In this document: piece after piece, positions 29,172-42,093 of the stretch
Position numbering within the stretch: position 1 is the stretch's first letter
Layout of the letters: each line of letters opens with the position of its first letter
Origin: a bacterium
GTDB lineage: Bacteria > CLD3 > SB21
Direction of reading: 5' to 3'
Length of the DNA: 49,226 bases
Assembly (NCBI GenBank): GCA_016787925.1
Contig: JAEUSK010000047.1
Coordinates: forward strand, 1 to 49,226
The notes under the pieces: model-generated
Told to the model about the DNA's origin: nothing
Database searches by the model: none
The model's input: the letters and a program-made list of their open reading frames with translations, nothing else
Program-made: the position numbers and the translations under genes

Positions 29172-31436
29172 ATGGAAAATCCCTCCAAAATATTACGGCT
29201 GAATATCGTTTTCATTATTTTATTGTTCCTTACGGGACTTGGTATCAGTTCATTTCTTTTTTATGCGCGTATCCGTTTTACTCTTGGAGTTGTGCTCAAT
29301 GAAGCCGTAATCATTGGTGTTTTAGTGCTCGTTCTATACACTGTATTTACCAATGGCCGGCTTGATGAAATGAGTATTACCCGCAAACTCAGATCAGGCC
29401 TCTTGCTTATGTTGGCAATTTATACTGTGGGGTTCGTGATAGCTTTTATGCTGCAGCCGGAGTATAAACCGCCAAGATATGCCGGCGGTAATGTGATGGA
29501 ACCCAACTCTTTATCGGCCGTGCTTGTGGCGCATGTGATCGGCATTGTAGCTGTCGTTTGTCTCTCGATTATGCTGAGGCTGATACAATCGCTTATTTTT
29601 CACCGTCGGAAAAAGAACACACAAAATCACTTTTTTGTGTTTGTTCTCCTTGCCGGACTCACCATTCTATCAACTGCCTTGACGGGCAAACCATTGCGGT
29701 ATGATCCTTCCGCCAACCATGTTGTCACGTTCATATTGCTTATTCTGACGACCATTTTCATGTCATTGAATGTGGTACGGGTCGGCTGGGTCACGGTACT
29801 AAACCGGCGGCAAAAATTATTTACATTTCTTGGTGGCATTATCTTCACTGTTGTGGCATCAGGCCTCTTAGGCGCGCCGATTGGTGCAGGGATTACGTTC
29901 TCAGACATAGTTGAGTCATACAGCCTGTCGGCCGGCTCATTCTTGTTCATCGTGGCGATTTTCGTTTTTTTCTACAGTATTACAACGACTGTTAATACGT
30001 TGATGCATTTGCCGACCGCTGCAATTTATGACAAGAAAGTTCGCGAGATTAATTCCATCTACAGCCTCAGCCGAACGATCAATTCCCTTTTTGATTTTGA
30101 CAAGATTGTTGTTGCCGTTACTGATCTGGTTTGCGAAGCCACGAACGCGCAGGCATCGTGGCTTGAGATGGCGAATGCGAAAAATCCGTCATTCCGCGGC
30201 CAGTTTGATTTTGTAGCCTTAAAGACTAAAGACAATTTTCATGTTCCCTTTTTGGAACTGAGTTCAAAAAAACATTTTTCAAAGAGCGGGGTTACCCAGT
30301 TATTACCGTCAAACGACCTTGATTATTTGCATTATTTAGTTCAGCCGGTTGAAACGATTTTACAGACAAAGAAACCGATAGTCATTAATCAGGTCAAGAA
30401 AGATAAGACGACTAAGGATTTGAATCGTACGCCGATGGAGTCTCTTGTCGGTGTTCCTCTAATATCCAATGATGAAATTGTAGGCATACTCTATGCTGCG
30501 AAAGCTCAGCAATTTGGTTTTGACCAGGACGATCTTGCGATTATATCTGCATTTGCAAATCAGACTACCGTTGCTTTGGAGAATACAAGACTTGTCAAAG
30601 AATCCTTGGAAAAAGAACGGTTGGAACAGGAATTACGTATTGCACACGAAGTGCAGATGAGGCTGATCCCGCAACAAATTCCCATGATCAGAAACGAAAC
30701 CGGAACAACAGCCCTCGATATAGGCGCAATGACGCTTCCCGCAAATGAAGTCGGCGGGGATTATTACGATTTTGTAAAGTTGGCAGATTGGCGTTTGGGT
30801 ATTGTGGTTGCGGACGTCTCCGGCAAAGGCACTTCGGCTGCATTTTATATGGCGGAAATCAAGGGCATTATTCAGGCATTAGCGGGAATTTATTCCGCAC
30901 CAAAAGACCTGATGATAGCGGTTAATGATGTTTTATATGGAAGCATGGATCGAAAATCTTTTATTACCGTTCTCTATGTTGACTTTGATATTTCAAAAAA
31001 CGAATTGCGTTTTGCGCGCGCAGGACATTGTCCGCTGCTGCACGTGTGCGGTGAAGAAAATACATTTGTTCGTCCTGACGGTATCGGACTCGGGTTGGAC
31101 AACGGGTTGCTGTTTCGCAACTCAATGGAGGAACACGTAATTAAAGTTCAAAATGATGATATTTTTGTAATGTATTCTGACGGATTGATTGAGGCGCGAA
31201 ATCCAACCGGCGAAGAGTTTGGCGAGGACAGATTATGCGCTGCTGTCCAATCAGTTCGCAATCTCGACGCTCAGACGATCAAAGATAAGATCATTCAGGA
31301 TGTCAGTTTTTTTGAAAACGGGTCTAAGGCGCACGACGATTTGACTTGTGTTGTATTAAAATTGAAAAAGCTTTCGGTTGATGCGGAATCGCCGGTTTCA
31401 TCGCCGCGCAAAGATGCCGCGCTTATACAGGGTTGA
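29172..31436 (+). CDS. Membrane GAF-SpoIIE (PP2C) serine phosphatase, RsbU-like
   Basis: A 754-residue signalling phosphatase. Residues 1-285 hold about eight hydrophobic helices, a putative 7TM/8TM sensor. A GAF domain spans about 300-480 (SLVGVPLISNDEIVGILYAAKAQQFGFDQDDLAIISAFANQ), a coiled linker about 480-500 (KERLEQELRIAHEVQMRLIPQQIP), and the SpoIIE/PP2C catalytic domain about 510-740 with NEVGGDYYDF, ADVSGKGTSAAFYM, RAGHCPLL, YSDGLIEARNPTGEEFG and DDLTCVVLKL carrying the metal aspartates. It should dephosphorylate the STAS protein encoded 115 bp downstream, which would in turn release an effector from the kinase at 31960. Confidence 0.93.
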   Translation: MENPSKILRLNIVFIILLFLTGLGISSFLFYARIRFTLGVVLNEAVIIGVLVLVLYTVFTNGRLDEMSITRKLRSGLLLMLAIYTVGFVIAFMLQPEYKPPRYAGGNVMEPNSLSAVLVAHVIGIVAVVCLSIMLRLIQSLIFHRRKKNTQNHFFVFVLLAGLTILSTALTGKPLRYDPSANHVVTFILLILTTIFMSLNVVRVGWVTVLNRRQKLFTFLGGIIFTVVASGLLGAPIGAGITFSDIVESYSLSAGSFLFIVAIFVFFYSITTTVNTLMHLPTAAIYDKKVREINSIYSLSRTINSLFDFDKIVVAVTDLVCEATNAQASWLEMANAKNPSFRGQFDFVALKTKDNFHVPFLELSSKKHFSKSGVTQLLPSNDLDYLHYLVQPVETILQTKKPIVINQVKKDKTTKDLNRTPMESLVGVPLISNDEIVGILYAAKAQQFGFDQDDLAIISAFANQTTVALENTRLVKESLEKERLEQELRIAHEVQMRLIPQQIPMIRNETGTTALDIGAMTLPANEVGGDYYDFVKLADWRLGIVVADVSGKGTSAAFYMAEIKGIIQALAGIYSAPKDLMIAVNDVLYGSMDRKSFITVLYVDFDISKNELRFARAGHCPLLHVCGEENTFVRPDGIGLGLDNGLLFRNSMEEHVIKVQNDDIFVMYSDGLIEARNPTGEEFGEDRLCAAVQSVRNLDAQTIKDKIIQDVSFFENGSKAHDDLTCVVLKLKKLSVDAESPVSSPRKDAALIQG

Positions 31437-31474
31437 CATGACGGCCATGGGTTTAACTTTCGGCTTGAATTAAA

Positions 31475-31524
31475 TGAAAAATAGGATTACAATACGCATA
31501 CTCTAAAACGTATTCTATTTTTCA
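31475..31524 (+). promoter_or_regulatory. Long bipartite stem-loop between phosphatase and STAS genes
   Basis: TGAAAAATAG (31475-31484) pairs perfectly with CTATTTTTCA (31515-31524). Inside it AATACG (31491-31496) pairs with CGTATT (31509-31514), leaving a 6-nt bulge on the left and a 12-nt loop. It lies within the 115-bp gap and no T-tract follows, so it is more likely an mRNA processing or attenuation element, or an operator, than a simple terminator. Confidence 0.5.
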
Positions 31525-31551
31525 TCCATTAACTAACGCAGGAATGGTTCA

Positions 31552-31917
31552 ATGAGCGGATTCGAAGTCTTTCGAAAAGACAACCAGGACGTTTCAGTGC
31601 TCTACTTAAAAGGGTATCTGGATGCCCATACGTATCCTAATTTTGAAGCAGAGCTTCAAAAACTTGTTGATGAAAAGCGATATAAAATTATCGTTGACTT
31701 CAATGACCTGAGCTACATTTCTAGTGCGGGGCTGGGCGTTTTCATGGGCTTTATCGAAACGGTCCGTGATAATTCCGGCGACATCAAGCTGTGCTCCATG
31801 TCGAGCAAGGTGTTTAAAGTTTTTGATTTGCTGGGTTTCCCGACCATCTATCAGATTTTGAAAGACTCGGAAGAAGCTCATAACAAATTTAAAGATACGG
31901 GCAGTGTATCGGGATAA
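31552..31917 (+). CDS. STAS-domain anti-anti-sigma factor (RsbV/SpoIIAA-like)
   Basis: A 121-residue single STAS domain. The conserved loop YISSAGLGVF (55-64) contains the serine pair Ser57-Ser58, which includes the expected phospho-acceptor. The preceding strand KIIVDFNDL is typical. In the known systems the unphosphorylated form binds the kinase (here 31960-32391) and frees its target; a SpoIIE phosphatase (here 29172-31436) reactivates it. AGGAATGG lies about 4-11 bases before the ATG. The three-gene order phosphatase-STAS-kinase is a complete partner-switching set. Confidence 0.93.
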   Translation: MSGFEVFRKDNQDVSVLYLKGYLDAHTYPNFEAELQKLVDEKRYKIIVDFNDLSYISSAGLGVFMGFIETVRDNSGDIKLCSMSSKVFKVFDLLGFPTIYQILKDSEEAHNKFKDTGSVSG

Positions 31918-31959
31918 TGCTCAAACGTGCAATAAAGGGTGAATTGAAGAGGTTTTAGA

Positions 31960-32391
31960 GTGAAAAAGAAATCGGCAAATATTTTTACGCTGAATATACC
32001 CAGTCGAACGGATAATCTGGAGATTATCAGGGAGTTTATCATCGGGATTGCAAAAAAATTCGGATTTGATGATGAAGGCATCAGTGAAATAGAACTGGCT
32101 GTCGATGAGGCCTGCGCCAACGTGATCAAACACGCCTATAATTACGATGAAAACAAAAAAATAGATATTACCGTAGAAACCAATTTGTCTAAACTCACCA
32201 TTACGATAAGCGATCAGGGCCGAGGATTTGATCCCGGCAAATTGGAAAGCCCGGAACAACGCTTACAAAAACACGCACGAGGAGGATTGGGTATCGCGCT
32301 TATCAAGAAGGTCATGGATGAAGTGAGTTTCGATCTTCATCCCGGCAGTAACCACGTTAAAATGGTAAAATATATTTCTAATTCTAATTAA
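31960..32391 (+). CDS. Anti-sigma regulatory factor / serine kinase (RsbW-SpoIIAB-like HATPase)
   Basis: A 143-residue HATPase_c domain of the GHKL type. The N-box is ELAVDEACANVIKHAY (about 47-62), G1 is ISDQGRGFDPG (about 84-94), and G2 GGLGIALIKKVMDEV (about 109-123). It should phosphorylate the STAS partner encoded 42 bp upstream. In classic systems it also sequesters a sigma factor, but no sigmaB/sigmaF-like gene is adjacent; targets could also be non-sigma outputs. The start is GTG preceded by a moderate GAAGAGG. Confidence 0.92.
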   Translation: MKKKSANIFTLNIPSRTDNLEIIREFIIGIAKKFGFDDEGISEIELAVDEACANVIKHAYNYDENKKIDITVETNLSKLTITISDQGRGFDPGKLESPEQRLQKHARGGLGIALIKKVMDEVSFDLHPGSNHVKMVKYISNSN

Positions 32392-37946: not shown

Positions 37947-39506
37947 CTATTTTCTACTCTTGATAAATTCATCCACAATTCTGTCGATTTCTGTTTCTTT
38001 TAATGCTGATGAACCATAGGTGCGTTCCCCTGAACCTGACGGAATCCGCATTTCCGATTTTTGCTTTTTGGGGCGTGAGTCAAAGGCCGGCTGTTCGTAT
38101 TTAGCGTCGGCACCTGAAGACTCGTTTGGCGAAGCGGCCGTTTGGTTTACCAGTGTCGACCTGAACGGACGAATTTCAAACGCCAACCTCTTGACATTGA
38201 TCAAGTGCGTTGGCATGATGTTGTCCGTAGTGATTGATCCTCCGAGTGTTCCGGGTCCCAGCGTCATCGACGGCGCAAGCCCTGTTGTGTATCCAACCGC
38301 TCCCAGTGTCGAGACCGTATTTACGCAAATACGAAAGGCCGGTTTTTCGAGGCCAAAACGCATGATCACATCATGATCGTTGGAGTGAATAGACATCGTG
38401 TGCCCAATACCGCCAAAGTTCAGGATTTTAACCGCGAGATCGCATCCGGCTTCCCAGCCGTCCACATAAAATAAGGACAAAACCGGGGACAATTTTTCTG
38501 CGGACAACGGTTCCTGTTTACCAACTTCCTTACATGGCGCAACAAGTATCGTTGTATTTGCAGGAACGGAAAACCCGGCTTTCTCTGCAATGACAGATGC
38601 CGGCATGCCGATAATTTCCGTATTGAGTCTTCCTCGGCCAAACATGAGTTTTTCCAGTTTAGTTTTTTCGTCATCTGAACAGAGGTGCGCGCGATTATTC
38701 TTTAATTCCGCCAATGCCTGTTCTTTCAGAGAGATATCCACGATCATGGAATTTTCGGACGAGCAAAGAAGTCCGTAATCAAAACATTTACCGGCAACGA
38801 TATCCGCCACGGCTTTCTTGACATTTGCCGTTTTTTCAATAAATGCCGGCGCGTTGCCGGATCCTACCCCGTAGGCGGGTTTTCCGGAGCTGTATGCCGC
38901 ATGAACAATTCCGTGGCCGCCCGTGGCAAGTATCACGGCAATTTCGGGACACTGCATCAGCGCCTGAGTCCCCTCGATCGTCGGCGTTTGTATACAGCCG
39001 ACCAGTCCTTTTGGAGCGCCGTGTTTTTCCGCCGCCTTTCTGAGAATTTCAGCCGCCTCGAACGTACACTTTGCTGCCCGCGGGTGAGGCGCGACAGCGA
39101 CGCCGTTACCGGCTTTGAGCGAGATCAGTATTTTATACATCACAGTTGACGTCGGGTTGGTCGTCGGAATGATAGCGGCAACGACACCCATCGGCCAGCC
39201 GATTTCATAAATTTTTTTCTTTTCGTCGTGGCGGATAACGCCGACGGTTTTCATATCCTTGATATAGTCGTATACATCTCTTGTGCCAAACTGATTCTTG
39301 ACAATCTTGTCCTCATAACGGCCCATACGTGTTTCTTCATATGCCAATTTTGCAAGACGTTCGGCGGCTTCAAATCCTGCATCCGCCATTGCTTTGACAA
39401 TTGCGTCAACCTGAGTTTGTGAGAACTTCGCAAACTCTTTTTGAGCGGCGGCTGCTAAACGCGCCACGTCGCGAGCTTCCTGCACTGAAATAAGATCTTT
39501 GTCCAT
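37947..39506 (-). CDS. CoA-acylating aldehyde dehydrogenase (EutE/AdhE-N type) with C-terminal extension
   Basis: A 519-residue enzyme interconverting an aldehyde, CoA and NAD+ with acyl-CoA. The catalytic Cys248 is in FDYGLLCSSEN, as in AdhE and EutE aldehyde domains. Also present are VVAAIIPTTNPTS (109-121), VAPHPRAAKCT, and LGPGTLGGSITTDNIMPTHLIN near residue 420. The dehydrogenase domain ends near 445. A tail of about 74 residues follows: a Ser/Pro/Lys-rich linker, then an amphipathic helix (last 18 residues, ALKETEIDRIVDEFIKSRK). This resembles encapsulation peptides of bacterial microcompartments, but no shell gene is in view. ATG at 39506 is preferred over TTG at 39542. AdhE is excluded because the alcohol dehydrogenase half is missing. 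Confidence 0.88.
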   Translation of the reverse strand: MDKDLISVQEARDVARLAAAAQKEFAKFSQTQVDAIVKAMADAGFEAAERLAKLAYEETRMGRYEDKIVKNQFGTRDVYDYIKDMKTVGVIRHDEKKKIYEIGWPMGVVAAIIPTTNPTSTVMYKILISLKAGNGVAVAPHPRAAKCTFEAAEILRKAAEKHGAPKGLVGCIQTPTIEGTQALMQCPEIAVILATGGHGIVHAAYSSGKPAYGVGSGNAPAFIEKTANVKKAVADIVAGKCFDYGLLCSSENSMIVDISLKEQALAELKNNRAHLCSDDEKTKLEKLMFGRGRLNTEIIGMPASVIAEKAGFSVPANTTILVAPCKEVGKQEPLSAEKLSPVLSLFYVDGWEAGCDLAVKILNFGGIGHTMSIHSNDHDVIMRFGLEKPAFRICVNTVSTLGAVGYTTGLAPSMTLGPGTLGGSITTDNIMPTHLINVKRLAFEIRPFRSTLVNQTAASPNESSGADAKYEQPAFDSRPKKQKSEMRIPSGSGERTYGSSALKETEIDRIVDEFIKSRK

Positions 39507-39702
39507 AAAGCATATCGTTCGAGTTGTTTCGATAGAAATCAATTAAAAAAAATATAGAGATTATAGAAACGACTTTCAAGGAATATGTACCAAAAATAAT
39601 GAATAGTCCTTGATAAAATGTGAAGACTTCCAACAGCGACCGCAAAGAACAAGAAAAGTCCAATCCGCTGCCGGACTGAACTTTCATTGCCTTCGAAAGG
39701 AA

Positions 39703-39858
39703 TTATTTCAGAGCGGCATCAATTTGAGCGGCAGTACAAAAACCTTTAGCCACTAAAACTTCGCCTATTTTTTTACCGCTGGCGGCCTGATCCTTCAAAG
39801 CTTCATCAAGCTGTGCCTGCGTAATGACGCCCTGACTGACTAATTTGTCACCTAACAT
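39703..39858 (-). CDS. 51-residue MshEN/GspE-N-like mini-protein
   Basis: A short gene of 51 codons beginning MLGDKLVSQGVITQAQLDEAL and containing SGKKIGEVLVAKGF, then AAQIDAAL. This is the signature helical pair of the T2SS/pilus ATPase N-terminal (MshEN/GspE-N) domain: LGxxLvxxgxIxxxQLxxAL followed by xxGxxLGExLvxxGxx. In larger proteins that fold binds cyclic di-GMP or acts as a docking domain. AAGGAA lies eight bases before the ATG. There is no ATPase domain, signal peptide or membrane segment. It stands alone between the fadB-like terminator and the aldehyde dehydrogenase gene. Coding is supported by the family match and ribosome site. Confidence 0.75.
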   Translation of the reverse strand: MLGDKLVSQGVITQAQLDEALKDQAASGKKIGEVLVAKGFCTAAQIDAALK

Positions 39859-39928
39859 GTTTTTGTTCCTTTCTTGGTGTAATTATGTGAATAACCGCTA
39901 ATTCAATAAGTTATCAAGATACCGGTAT

Positions 39929-39952
39929 TAAAAAAACGGAGCCCATTGCTCC
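39929..39952 (-). terminator. Rho-independent terminator after the FadB-like gene
   Basis: On the minus strand GGAGC-AATGG-GCTCC is followed directly by GTTTTTTT. It begins 6 bp beyond the stop at 39958 and separates that transcript from the mini-protein gene. Confidence 0.8.
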
Positions 39953-39957
39953 TACCG

Positions 39958-42093
39958 CTAGTTATAGAACTTCTTGCCTGATTTCTTCATGTCAAGAAGG
40001 AAATCGCACGGTTTAAATCTGGCGCCGAATTTTTGCGTATAGGTTTCCAGAACATTAACTATTTTTTCAATTCCTTCCGAATCGGCATACCTCATCAGGC
40101 CGCCGCGGAATGGAGGGAAACCCGTTCCGAAAATCATTCCGATTTCAATGTCGTCTACCGAATTGACTATCCCTTCCGCAAGGCACATGGCGGCTTCGTT
40201 GATCATGGGATAGGTCATGCGTTGCACCATTTCTTCTTTGCTGACGGAACCGTCGCCTTTAATATCAATGAGTGCATATACTTTTTCATCAACCACGGCG
40301 CGTTTGTCGCCATGTATATAAAAACCCAACTTTCCTTTCTTTCCGAGCCGTTTATCGGCATTGAGTTTTTCAAGCGCATGGGAGCCTTGCACACGCGCGC
40401 CGAATGCGTTTTCGAAAATTTTTCCGACTTTATAGGCGACGTCAATTCCGACTTCGTCGATCAGCAGGGCCGGCCCCATCGGCATGCCGAAATCCGTCAT
40501 GACCTTATCCATCGCTTCTATTTTTACACCCTCTTCGAGCAAAAAGCCGGCTTCATTCAGATACGGCATTAAAAGGCGGTTAACTAGAAATCCGGCTCCG
40601 TCATTTACAACGATCGGTGTTTTGCCTAATTTCTTGGAAAACGAATATATCGCCGCTACGGAACGGTCGGACGTTTTCTTGCCGCGGATAATTTCCACGA
40701 GCGGCATACGATGAACCGGGTTAAAGAAATGCATACCGACGAAATTCTCAGGTCTCTTGTAAGCCGTGGCCATTTCTGTTATTGATAATGACGACGTATT
40801 GGAAGCTACGATGCATTCGTCGTTAACATGTTTTGATATTTCGGCGATCACTTGTTTCTTGATGTCCATGTTTTCTACAATCGCTTCGACGATAAGTTCA
40901 GTTCTTCCGAATCCTTGATAATCCAAAGTGCCGGTAATATACGCCATTTTTCTTTTCAGTTGCATTTTGGTTAGGCGCCGTTGTTTCAATTTTCGTTCGT
41001 ATAACTTTCTTGATGCATCTAAGCCTAAGCCGATGGCCTGATGATTGATATCCTTCAGGCGCACTTCTACATTATTATCCGAAAACAGATATGCAATACC
41101 GCCGCCCATGACGCCTGCGCCCAAAACGCCGGAGTAACGTATCTGCGGTACAGTAATTTTTTTATCGGCGACGCCCGTGCTCTTTTTGATATCTTCCGTG
41201 AGGCGGAAAATTCGGATGAGATTTTTCGAAATGGGCGTTACGATCATTTCACCCAGGTATTTTGCTTCGATCTTCAAGCCTTCATCGAGGGGTTTTGAAA
41301 AACCTTCCTTAACTGACTGCAAGGCGCGCAGCGGCGCCGGGTAATGTCCCTTAGTTTCTTTCAGCACACTTTTTCTTGCCTGACTGTATATTATGCCTTT
41401 CCCGACGGTTTCCAATAGAACATTAACCAGGCCTTTAACTTTTCTGCGTTCGGTATACTTTTTCGACTTGCCGTTGAGAATTTCCGTAACGAATTCTTGT
41501 GCGTATTTTTCGTAAAAGTTTGCCGGTATGACCTTATCAACCATGCAAGTTTTATAGGCACGTACGGCATCCAATGTTTTCCCTGACAGAATAAGAGGTA
41601 AGGATCGCTGCAAACCGATCAATCGCGGCAAACGTTGGGTTCCTCCAAAACCGGGTATAATGCCGAGCATGACTTCGGGTAACCCGATTTTTGTTTTAGG
41701 ACTGTCTGTCGCAAGCCGGTAATGACAGGCAAGCGAGAGTTCGGTTCCGCCTCCCATACATGCGCCGTCGATGACACAGACGACAGGGAAGGGCAGCTTT
41801 TCCAGCTTACTGAAAATCGCCTGCCCGGCGGCGGCGCCTTGCTCGCCTAATTTGGCATCAGTGATGTTCTTGATCTCATCGATGTCTGCCCCAACAATAA
41901 AAATACCGTCTTTTGCGCTCGAAATAATACATGCTTTAATGGTTGAAGCATTATTATTCATCCAATCGATCGCGCGATTCAGTGACTCCATGACAGGCGT
42001 GGAGAGTTTATTAAATTTTTCATTCGGGAAATCAAAAACCAGATAAGCAACCTGGTCTCTGACGCTGAGCGTGAGTCCAAAATATGTTTCCAT
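39958..42093 (-). CDS. Bifunctional enoyl-CoA hydratase / 3-hydroxyacyl-CoA dehydrogenase (FadB/FadJ type)
   Basis: A 711-residue fatty-acid beta-oxidation enzyme. The N-terminal crotonase domain (1-190) has [26 protein letters not shown] and [21 protein letters not shown] with both catalytic glutamates. The NAD-binding 3-hydroxyacyl-CoA dehydrogenase domain starts near residue 322 ([17 protein letters not shown]) and contains SNTSSLSI and [17 protein letters not shown] with the catalytic His. Two C-terminal HAD domains follow (about 500-600 and 620-705). It should carry out the hydration and second oxidation steps. No thiolase or acyl-CoA dehydrogenase is adjacent. The upstream gap of 137 bp to moxR probably holds its promoter. 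Confidence 0.95.

Follow-up and report, generated by a model that had tools for sequence, protein, structure and literature searches.

Is a single MshEN domain ever a gene of its own? Such domains have been described as parts built into longer proteins, ATPases and glycosyltransferases among them. The question is raised by a 51-codon open reading frame in the window, here the whole 49,226-nt stretch of bacterial DNA that was analysed (assembly GCA_016787925.1, contig JAEUSK010000047.1). With its stop codon the frame fills exactly positions 39703–39858 on the minus strand, begins at an ATG at 39858, and translates as MLGDKLVSQGVITQAQLDEALKDQAASGKKIGEVLVAKGFCTAAQIDAALK. We propose, with a probability of about 0.6, that this mini gene encodes a free-standing MshEN_N domain that would act as a soluble, single-domain c-di-GMP receptor or adaptor. 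The features on which the argument draws are as follows.

39958–42093, minus strand: gene for a FadJ-type multifunctional fatty-acid oxidation alpha subunit, 711 residues, upstream of the mini gene (context)
39938–39952, minus strand: weak terminator-like hairpin of 5 pairs with a T-run, in the gap from fadJ to the mini gene (terminator scan)
39867–39872, minus strand: Shine-Dalgarno-like AAAGGA, ending 8 nt before the ATG (sequence)
39703–39858, minus strand: gene for the 51-residue free-standing MshEN_N (c-di-GMP motif) protein, stop included (open reading frame, profile match, conservation, predicted fold)
39787–39858, minus strand: motif 1, residues 1–24, M1 L2 G3 ... L17 ... L21 ... Q24 (sequence; mapped onto MshE)
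39772–39786, minus strand: spacer AASGK, residues 25–29, its five-residue length as in MshE (sequence)
39706–39771, minus strand: motif 2, residues 30–51, K30 I31 G32 ... I46 ... L50, stopping before the consensus final Gln (sequence)
39654–39685, minus strand: intrinsic-terminator-like hairpin just 3′ of the stop, 14 pairs of which 5 are G-C, with a T-rich tail
37947–39506, minus strand: gene for an aldehyde dehydrogenase of the CoA-acylating kind, 519 residues from its ATG, downstream (context)

Upstream of the ATG the frame stays open for only 8 codons (LHQERNKN), without any ATG, GTG or TTG. The good ribosome site described in the initial annotation is indeed present, as AAAGGA at 39872–39867, 8 nt from the ATG. 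The same annotation placed a terminator on one side of the gene and the aldehyde dehydrogenase on the other; both in fact lie downstream (hairpin at 39685–39654, dehydrogenase ATG at 39506), and the upstream side is occupied by the fadJ-type gene, which ends at 39958, 99 bp away. The 63-nt segment 39640–39702, which holds the 3′ hairpin, has a folding energy of −27.1 kcal/mol (z −4.5), and the whole 99-nt gap between fadJ and the mini gene folds barely more stably than shuffles (z −1.7). Terminator-like sites in 39400–40100 number 4, against 0.9 (s.d. 1.0) in shuffled sequence. Scanning revealed no sigma-70-like promoter between fadJ and the mini gene, and Rfam at gathering scores returned no RNA element in the window, hence no known c-di-GMP riboswitch nearby.

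Genes this small are easily overlooked or left nameless in annotation. A short frame could also be a chance one, or a pilus ATPase gene reduced to an intergenic remnant, the more so as MshEN usually lies within longer proteins and the start falls exactly at the start of the motif. We therefore turn to the relatives of the window's genome, nine genomes of the phylum in all, seven from the window's family and two from a sister family. The mini gene is present with its frame intact in 7/7 family genomes, spread over four genera; the protein is identical in the three genomes of the window's genus and 72–78% identical to it in the three other genera, and the motif part is 51–52 residues long in every case. 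In one genus (two genomes) translation could also start at an in-frame ATG two codons upstream, giving a product extended by MA. The congeneric pair G000/G001 differs by 12 synonymous and 0 nonsynonymous changes (neutral P 1.6e-8), and the pair G005/G006 by 22 synonymous and 1 nonsynonymous (neutral P 1.2e-13), so that the mini protein is under purifying selection in both pairs. According to the initial annotation, a frame disrupted in close relatives, or homology only to an intergenic remnant, would have told against a gene; the conservation and substitution comparison that it had called for gave the opposite picture. The frame is real, neither remnant nor chance product: intactness in 7/7 genomes across four genera and the 12:0 and 22:1 ratios rule that origin out, leaving it a negligible probability. 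Each genome carries one copy; a second short match in G003, 57 codons ending at the contig end, was taken as a cut ATPase. In the two sister-family genomes the motif occurs only inside a frame of 575–581 codons, and no mini gene or match to a full-length fused FadJ turned up in them.

The identity of the product was assessed with NF053729 (c-di-GMP_motif, NCBIfam), which matches residues 2–50 along model positions 2–50 of 53 with 69.7 bits (E 1.3e-19), above the curated cut-off of 38 bits. The best phmmer matches among PDB sequences are Thermus PilF (6.6e-9) and MshE (5htl, 2.9e-7). As judged from these comparisons, the similarity to MshEN is far above chance, and with the exact open reading frame it upholds the earlier description of a free-standing 51-residue MshEN-like protein. 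The profile search proposed there, with MshEN and T2SSE_N models, was answered by NF053729 only: Pfam (maximum E 10, with HMMER filters that drop most weak matches) listed neither model, and its best entries for the mini protein were the sub-threshold FumaraseC_C and DUF4388. Nor is the protein a member of the MshE/GspE/PilB-type ATPases, as the ATPase domain and MshEN_C are absent and the chain ends at residue 51.

The protein was at first taken to be one motif unit. It is instead a tandem pair, two 24-residue motifs joined by a five-residue spacer, with motif 2 two residues short and the chain thus ending two residues before the 53rd. A 53-residue tandem-motif unit is reported to hold one c-di-GMP (Wang 2016, PMC5013675). 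In motif 1 the LG pair and the Leu residues of LxxxL are present in 7/7 sequences (L2, G3, L17, L21); the motif 2 counterparts are I/L31, G32, I46 and L50, with Ile at two Leu positions. The residue that starts motif 1 is Met, large and hydrophobic though outside the R/K/L list, and that of motif 2 is Lys, within the extended R/K/L consensus; both are invariant in all seven. Of the Gln residues that end the motifs, Q24 is kept and that of motif 2 is absent in 7/7, so the consensus is not perfect. Membership in NF053729 accordingly rests on score and architecture, and the absence of the final Gln lowers the claim of binding.

AlphaFold2, run on three sequences (two of them distinct), predicts helices at 2–8, 14–27, 31–38 and 43–50 with a mean pLDDT of 92.9, that is, a four-helix bundle as in MshEN_N. 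For this model the best structural match is c-di-GMP-bound MshE (5htl_B, TMq 0.93, r.m.s.d. 0.7 Å), to which VIA-align gave Z 10.3 over 51 residues (chain residues 9–59), and GSPII-B of PilF is also among the best matches to the predicted structure. Foldseek E-values are modest, 5.5e-3 at best. Further matches include the N-domain of Xanthomonas citri PilB (Z 8.7), the C-termini of fumarases (Z 7.5) and the non-binding GSPII-A domain of PilF (9g1w, TMq 0.83); for helical bundles, the tool warns, Z under ~13 can mean a common arrangement. Because other bundles, among them a non-binding one, also match and Z is under that value, the predicted fold backs the sequence result and cannot stand alone. 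Identity as FumaraseC_C (PF10415) was rejected, with 23.6 bits against a gathering score of 32.5 and a structural Z of at most 7.5 against 10.3 for MshE.

Whether the domain can still hold its ligand depends on the contact residues. Like MshEN_N of Vibrio cholerae MshE (5HTL), the mini protein has the two 24-residue motifs, the 5-residue spacer, the core Leu and Gly residues and the first Gln; unlike it, it stands alone, without MshEN_C and ATPase, its M1 occupies the position of Arg9, residue 30 is Lys in place of Arg38, and Gln61 has no counterpart, these three differences recurring in 7/7. The MshE contacts Leu10, Gly11, Asp12, Leu25, Leu29, Gln32, Gly40 and Leu58 are kept in all seven sequences; across the seven, Leu39 is replaced by Ile or stays Leu, Leu54 by Ile and Asp41 by Glu. 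Invariant among the seven are 12/13 ligand-contact positions against 17/37 others (P 0.003, or P 0.005 when Met1 is left out; both values are indicative only, given the relatedness of the sequences). The conservation of M1 is uninformative in 5/7, where it is the start residue.

Published substitutions help in reading these changes. The isolated MshEN_N, residues 1–62, is reported to bind c-di-GMP with a KD of 0.35 μM, and changes at Arg9, Asp12 or Gln32 of MshE to cost at most about fivefold (Wang 2016, PMC5013675). GSPII-B of PilF, with Lys and Leu at the two motif Arg positions, is given a KD of 6 nM (Neissner 2024, PMC11731258), and a hydrophobic first motif residue is described there as raising affinity (K167L, KD 2 nM versus 6 nM for wild type). 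As the published Arg replacements still bind, Met1 and Lys30 are compatible with c-di-GMP binding. Ile at both LxxxL positions of a PilF construct reportedly costs 2.4-fold (Neissner 2025, PMC12002112), and in the same report a repaired GSPII-A trimmed near the motif start outbound a longer construct. For the second Gln, PilF Q218E is reported to retain a KD of 460 nM (Neissner 2024, PMC11731258); the double Gln mutant of GSPII-B showed no binding, and full-length PilF Q218E was undetected in cells, according to the same source. In engineered GSPII-A the Gln at the second position is listed among three changes required for measurable binding (PMC12002112), and for this reason the missing last Gln is the chief ground for doubting binding by the mini protein.

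That doubt could be taken further, to a helical-bundle adaptor that has lost c-di-GMP binding and makes protein contacts only, for example as a competitive inhibitor at the docking site of a PilB/GspE-type ATPase on its platform. Both end contacts are altered in every family sequence (Met for Arg, and no final Gln), MshEN domains reported as non-binding exist (XpsE and PilF GSPII-A), and the window's own genome has a pilus/secretion-type ATPase in a pilus-like cluster. Against this, the loss of binding in XpsE is reported to go with loss of core contacts, including those at G11, L29, G40, L54 and L58 (PMC5013675), whereas the mini protein has identical counterparts of L10, G11, D12, L25, L29, Q32, G40 and L58 in 7/7 and conserves its ligand positions more than the others. 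We consider such a ligand-free adaptor unlikely. From its sequence, the mini protein is predicted to bind c-di-GMP, perhaps in weakened form; we infer this from the fit of motif, predicted fold, most contact residues and genome context.

As for that context, the window's own genome (95% complete) has 9 GGDEF and 6 HD_5 matches, the latter model covering HD-GYP-type domains. No PilZ match was found in the nine phylum genomes at E ≤ 1e-3, and no EAL match at E ≤ 1e-5. Two proteins of the own genome pass the MshEN cut-off, the mini protein and a 568-residue ATPase of the pilus/secretion (PilB/GspE) type, so that the mini protein is, on profile scores, one of two recognizable MshEN candidates there, beside which receptors of other kinds may occur. 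GGDEF and HD_5 domains occur in all nine genomes. The ATPase, with a divergent MshEN, lies in the pilus-like cluster (L088, 1724–10740; contig C141 of G000), where by reading we also noted PilC-type and prepilin-like proteins, a response regulator, a histidine kinase and a GAF-GGDEF protein in which an RxxD precedes the GGEEF motif by five residues.

The suggestion of a soluble second-messenger sensor, made at the outset, thus stands as the best-supported reading on motif, predicted fold, contacts and context, with the reservation that one conserved Gln contact is missing. On the receptor reading, the product of about 5 kDa would fold into the four-helix cradle in which MshE-type pilus and secretion ATPases hold c-di-GMP. 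Diguanylate cyclases would raise c-di-GMP, and each half of the tandem motif would then hold one guanine. In Thermus PilF the first helical turn is reported to unwind on c-di-GMP binding; a similar rearrangement in the mini protein would provide a ready switch, and the altered surface of the loaded (or empty) domain would bind or release a partner. Partner and output are speculative. Our guess is the pilus/secretion ATPase or its platform, or a partner shared with the ATPase, since the ATPase is the only other MshEN user found in the genome. More tentatively still, and with somewhat less than even odds, the 51-residue cradle alone may be a natural c-di-GMP receptor, close to the smallest size at which a protein can bind this ligand; it would work in trans, in a phylum whose nine genomes gave no PilZ or EAL match, with an Arg-free site in which the initiator Met would stack on a guanine.

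A partner might be dispensable if this small protein were abundant and bound enough c-di-GMP to reduce the free pool, which would set the threshold of the pilus ATPase. It has its own Shine-Dalgarno-like site and terminator and no output domain, and in its own genus the gap to fadJ is 92–99 bp, with the weak hairpin there in the window. One copy per genome and gaps of 12–46 bp to fadJ in three of the four genera do not suggest unusually high expression, however, and we regard such a buffer as improbable. The short gaps make co-transcription with fadJ likely in those other genera.

The initial annotation placed the gene in a lipid/aldehyde metabolism region, and its neighbours are fadJ and the aldehyde dehydrogenase gene. 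Taken as a functional link, this setting would make the mini protein a small subunit that regulates either the FadJ-type enzyme or the dehydrogenase, tying fatty-acid or aldehyde metabolism to c-di-GMP. In keeping with this, fadJ is directly upstream in 7/7 family genomes (12–99 bp), the dehydrogenase is downstream in the six with a complete copy and its start is visible in the seventh, and searches of both sister-family genomes brought up neither the mini gene nor such a full-length fused FadJ. The neighbours, however, belong to a longer conserved block. In tblastn comparisons of 16 window proteins with stretches from G002, G004, G005 and G006 (four of the six other family genomes), the order GAF-SpoIIE, MoxR, fadJ, mini gene, dehydrogenase, CNNM was kept in 4/4 over the stretches reached, the contigs of G005 and G006 ending inside the block. 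Adjacency therefore says little about a partner or a metabolic link, and a terminator-like hairpin lies between the mini gene and the dehydrogenase. The functional part of the claim is accordingly weak, and an enzyme subunit is a remote prospect.

The best model for the aldehyde dehydrogenase, TIGR02518, scores 578 bits, below its cut-off of 620. The C-terminal ~70 residues of this protein consist of a variable linker and then a helix-like tail, L-x-E-x-x-I-x-x-I-V-x-E-F-I-x-S-R, conserved in 6/6 complete family copies and, by eye, resembling a bacterial-microcompartment encapsulation peptide. Matches to microcompartment shell domains occur in 9/9 phylum genomes; those of the window's own genome lie on a different contig, and a microcompartment system with dispersed genes may exist. 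Elsewhere in the window, at 29172–32391, genes named from sequence reading as SpoIIE-type phosphatase, STAS-domain and HATPase-type stand in a row, with the look of partner switching.

Among known systems, the GSPII-B domain of Thermus thermophilus PilF (8PDK, 8PE0, 9GLG) is reported to bind c-di-GMP although, like the mini protein, it lacks an Arg at the motif starts. It is one of three such domains in a large ATPase (913-residue chain, 6f8l), and its C-terminal subdomain, for which the mini protein has no equivalent, is described as adding a contact that helps affinity.

MapZ and DgrA are small single-domain PilZ receptors of c-di-GMP; such small PilZ proteins are longer than the mini protein, and their fold is unrelated to MshEN_N. 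If the receptor reading is true, the logic would be the same, a soluble one-domain receptor signalling to a partner. A conserved cradle-only gene would then mean that the MshEN module, like PilZ, can also act in trans. Sensors for c-di-GMP could then be built on the mini protein as a very small natural scaffold, and its natural lack of both Arg contacts and the last Gln would test which motif positions matter.

Fold and ligand site are already known, and the new element, as far as our sequence searches reach, would be the arrangement, a whole gene for the cradle only. The literature searched, in titles and abstract openings, yielded no free-standing natural MshEN protein, which does not in itself show absence from print. 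Among 290 genomes, 239 had a match at 1e-6, and outside the family every match listed lay in a frame open for 156 codons or more; two of the seven family copies score below the listed matches, and lower-scoring short genes may exist elsewhere. A phage and plasmid search at E ≤ 0.01 gave one record from a phage collection (unverified, human faeces) and five plasmid records. The phage record is probably bacterial DNA, as its motif stands at the head of an ATPase-like frame that is 585 or more codons long. One of the five plasmid matches is free-standing (Pseudanabaena), the Vibrio match lies within a frame of 103 codons, after which comes another ATPase-like frame, and for the remaining three the annotation reads ATPase or glycosyl transferase.

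With a Planktothrix case from a follow-up search, two cyanobacterial plasmids carry relatives of the cradle-only gene, which is therefore not unique. Both encode a free-standing MshEN protein of 65 residues annotated 'hypothetical protein' (Pseudanabaena WP_126391037.1 and Planktothrix WP_254175310.1), scoring 53.5 and 58.4 bits with NF053729. They differ from the mini protein in their neighbours and in a longer C-terminus, which in the Pseudanabaena protein includes the final Gln. Over 50 residues the latter shares 42% identity with the mini protein, and at this distance it is probably an independent case. The two are 55% identical to each other and lie at 1495–1692 (Pseudanabaena plasmid L090) and 1501–1698 (Planktothrix plasmid L099), the Planktothrix gene being followed by one for a sigma-70 family factor.
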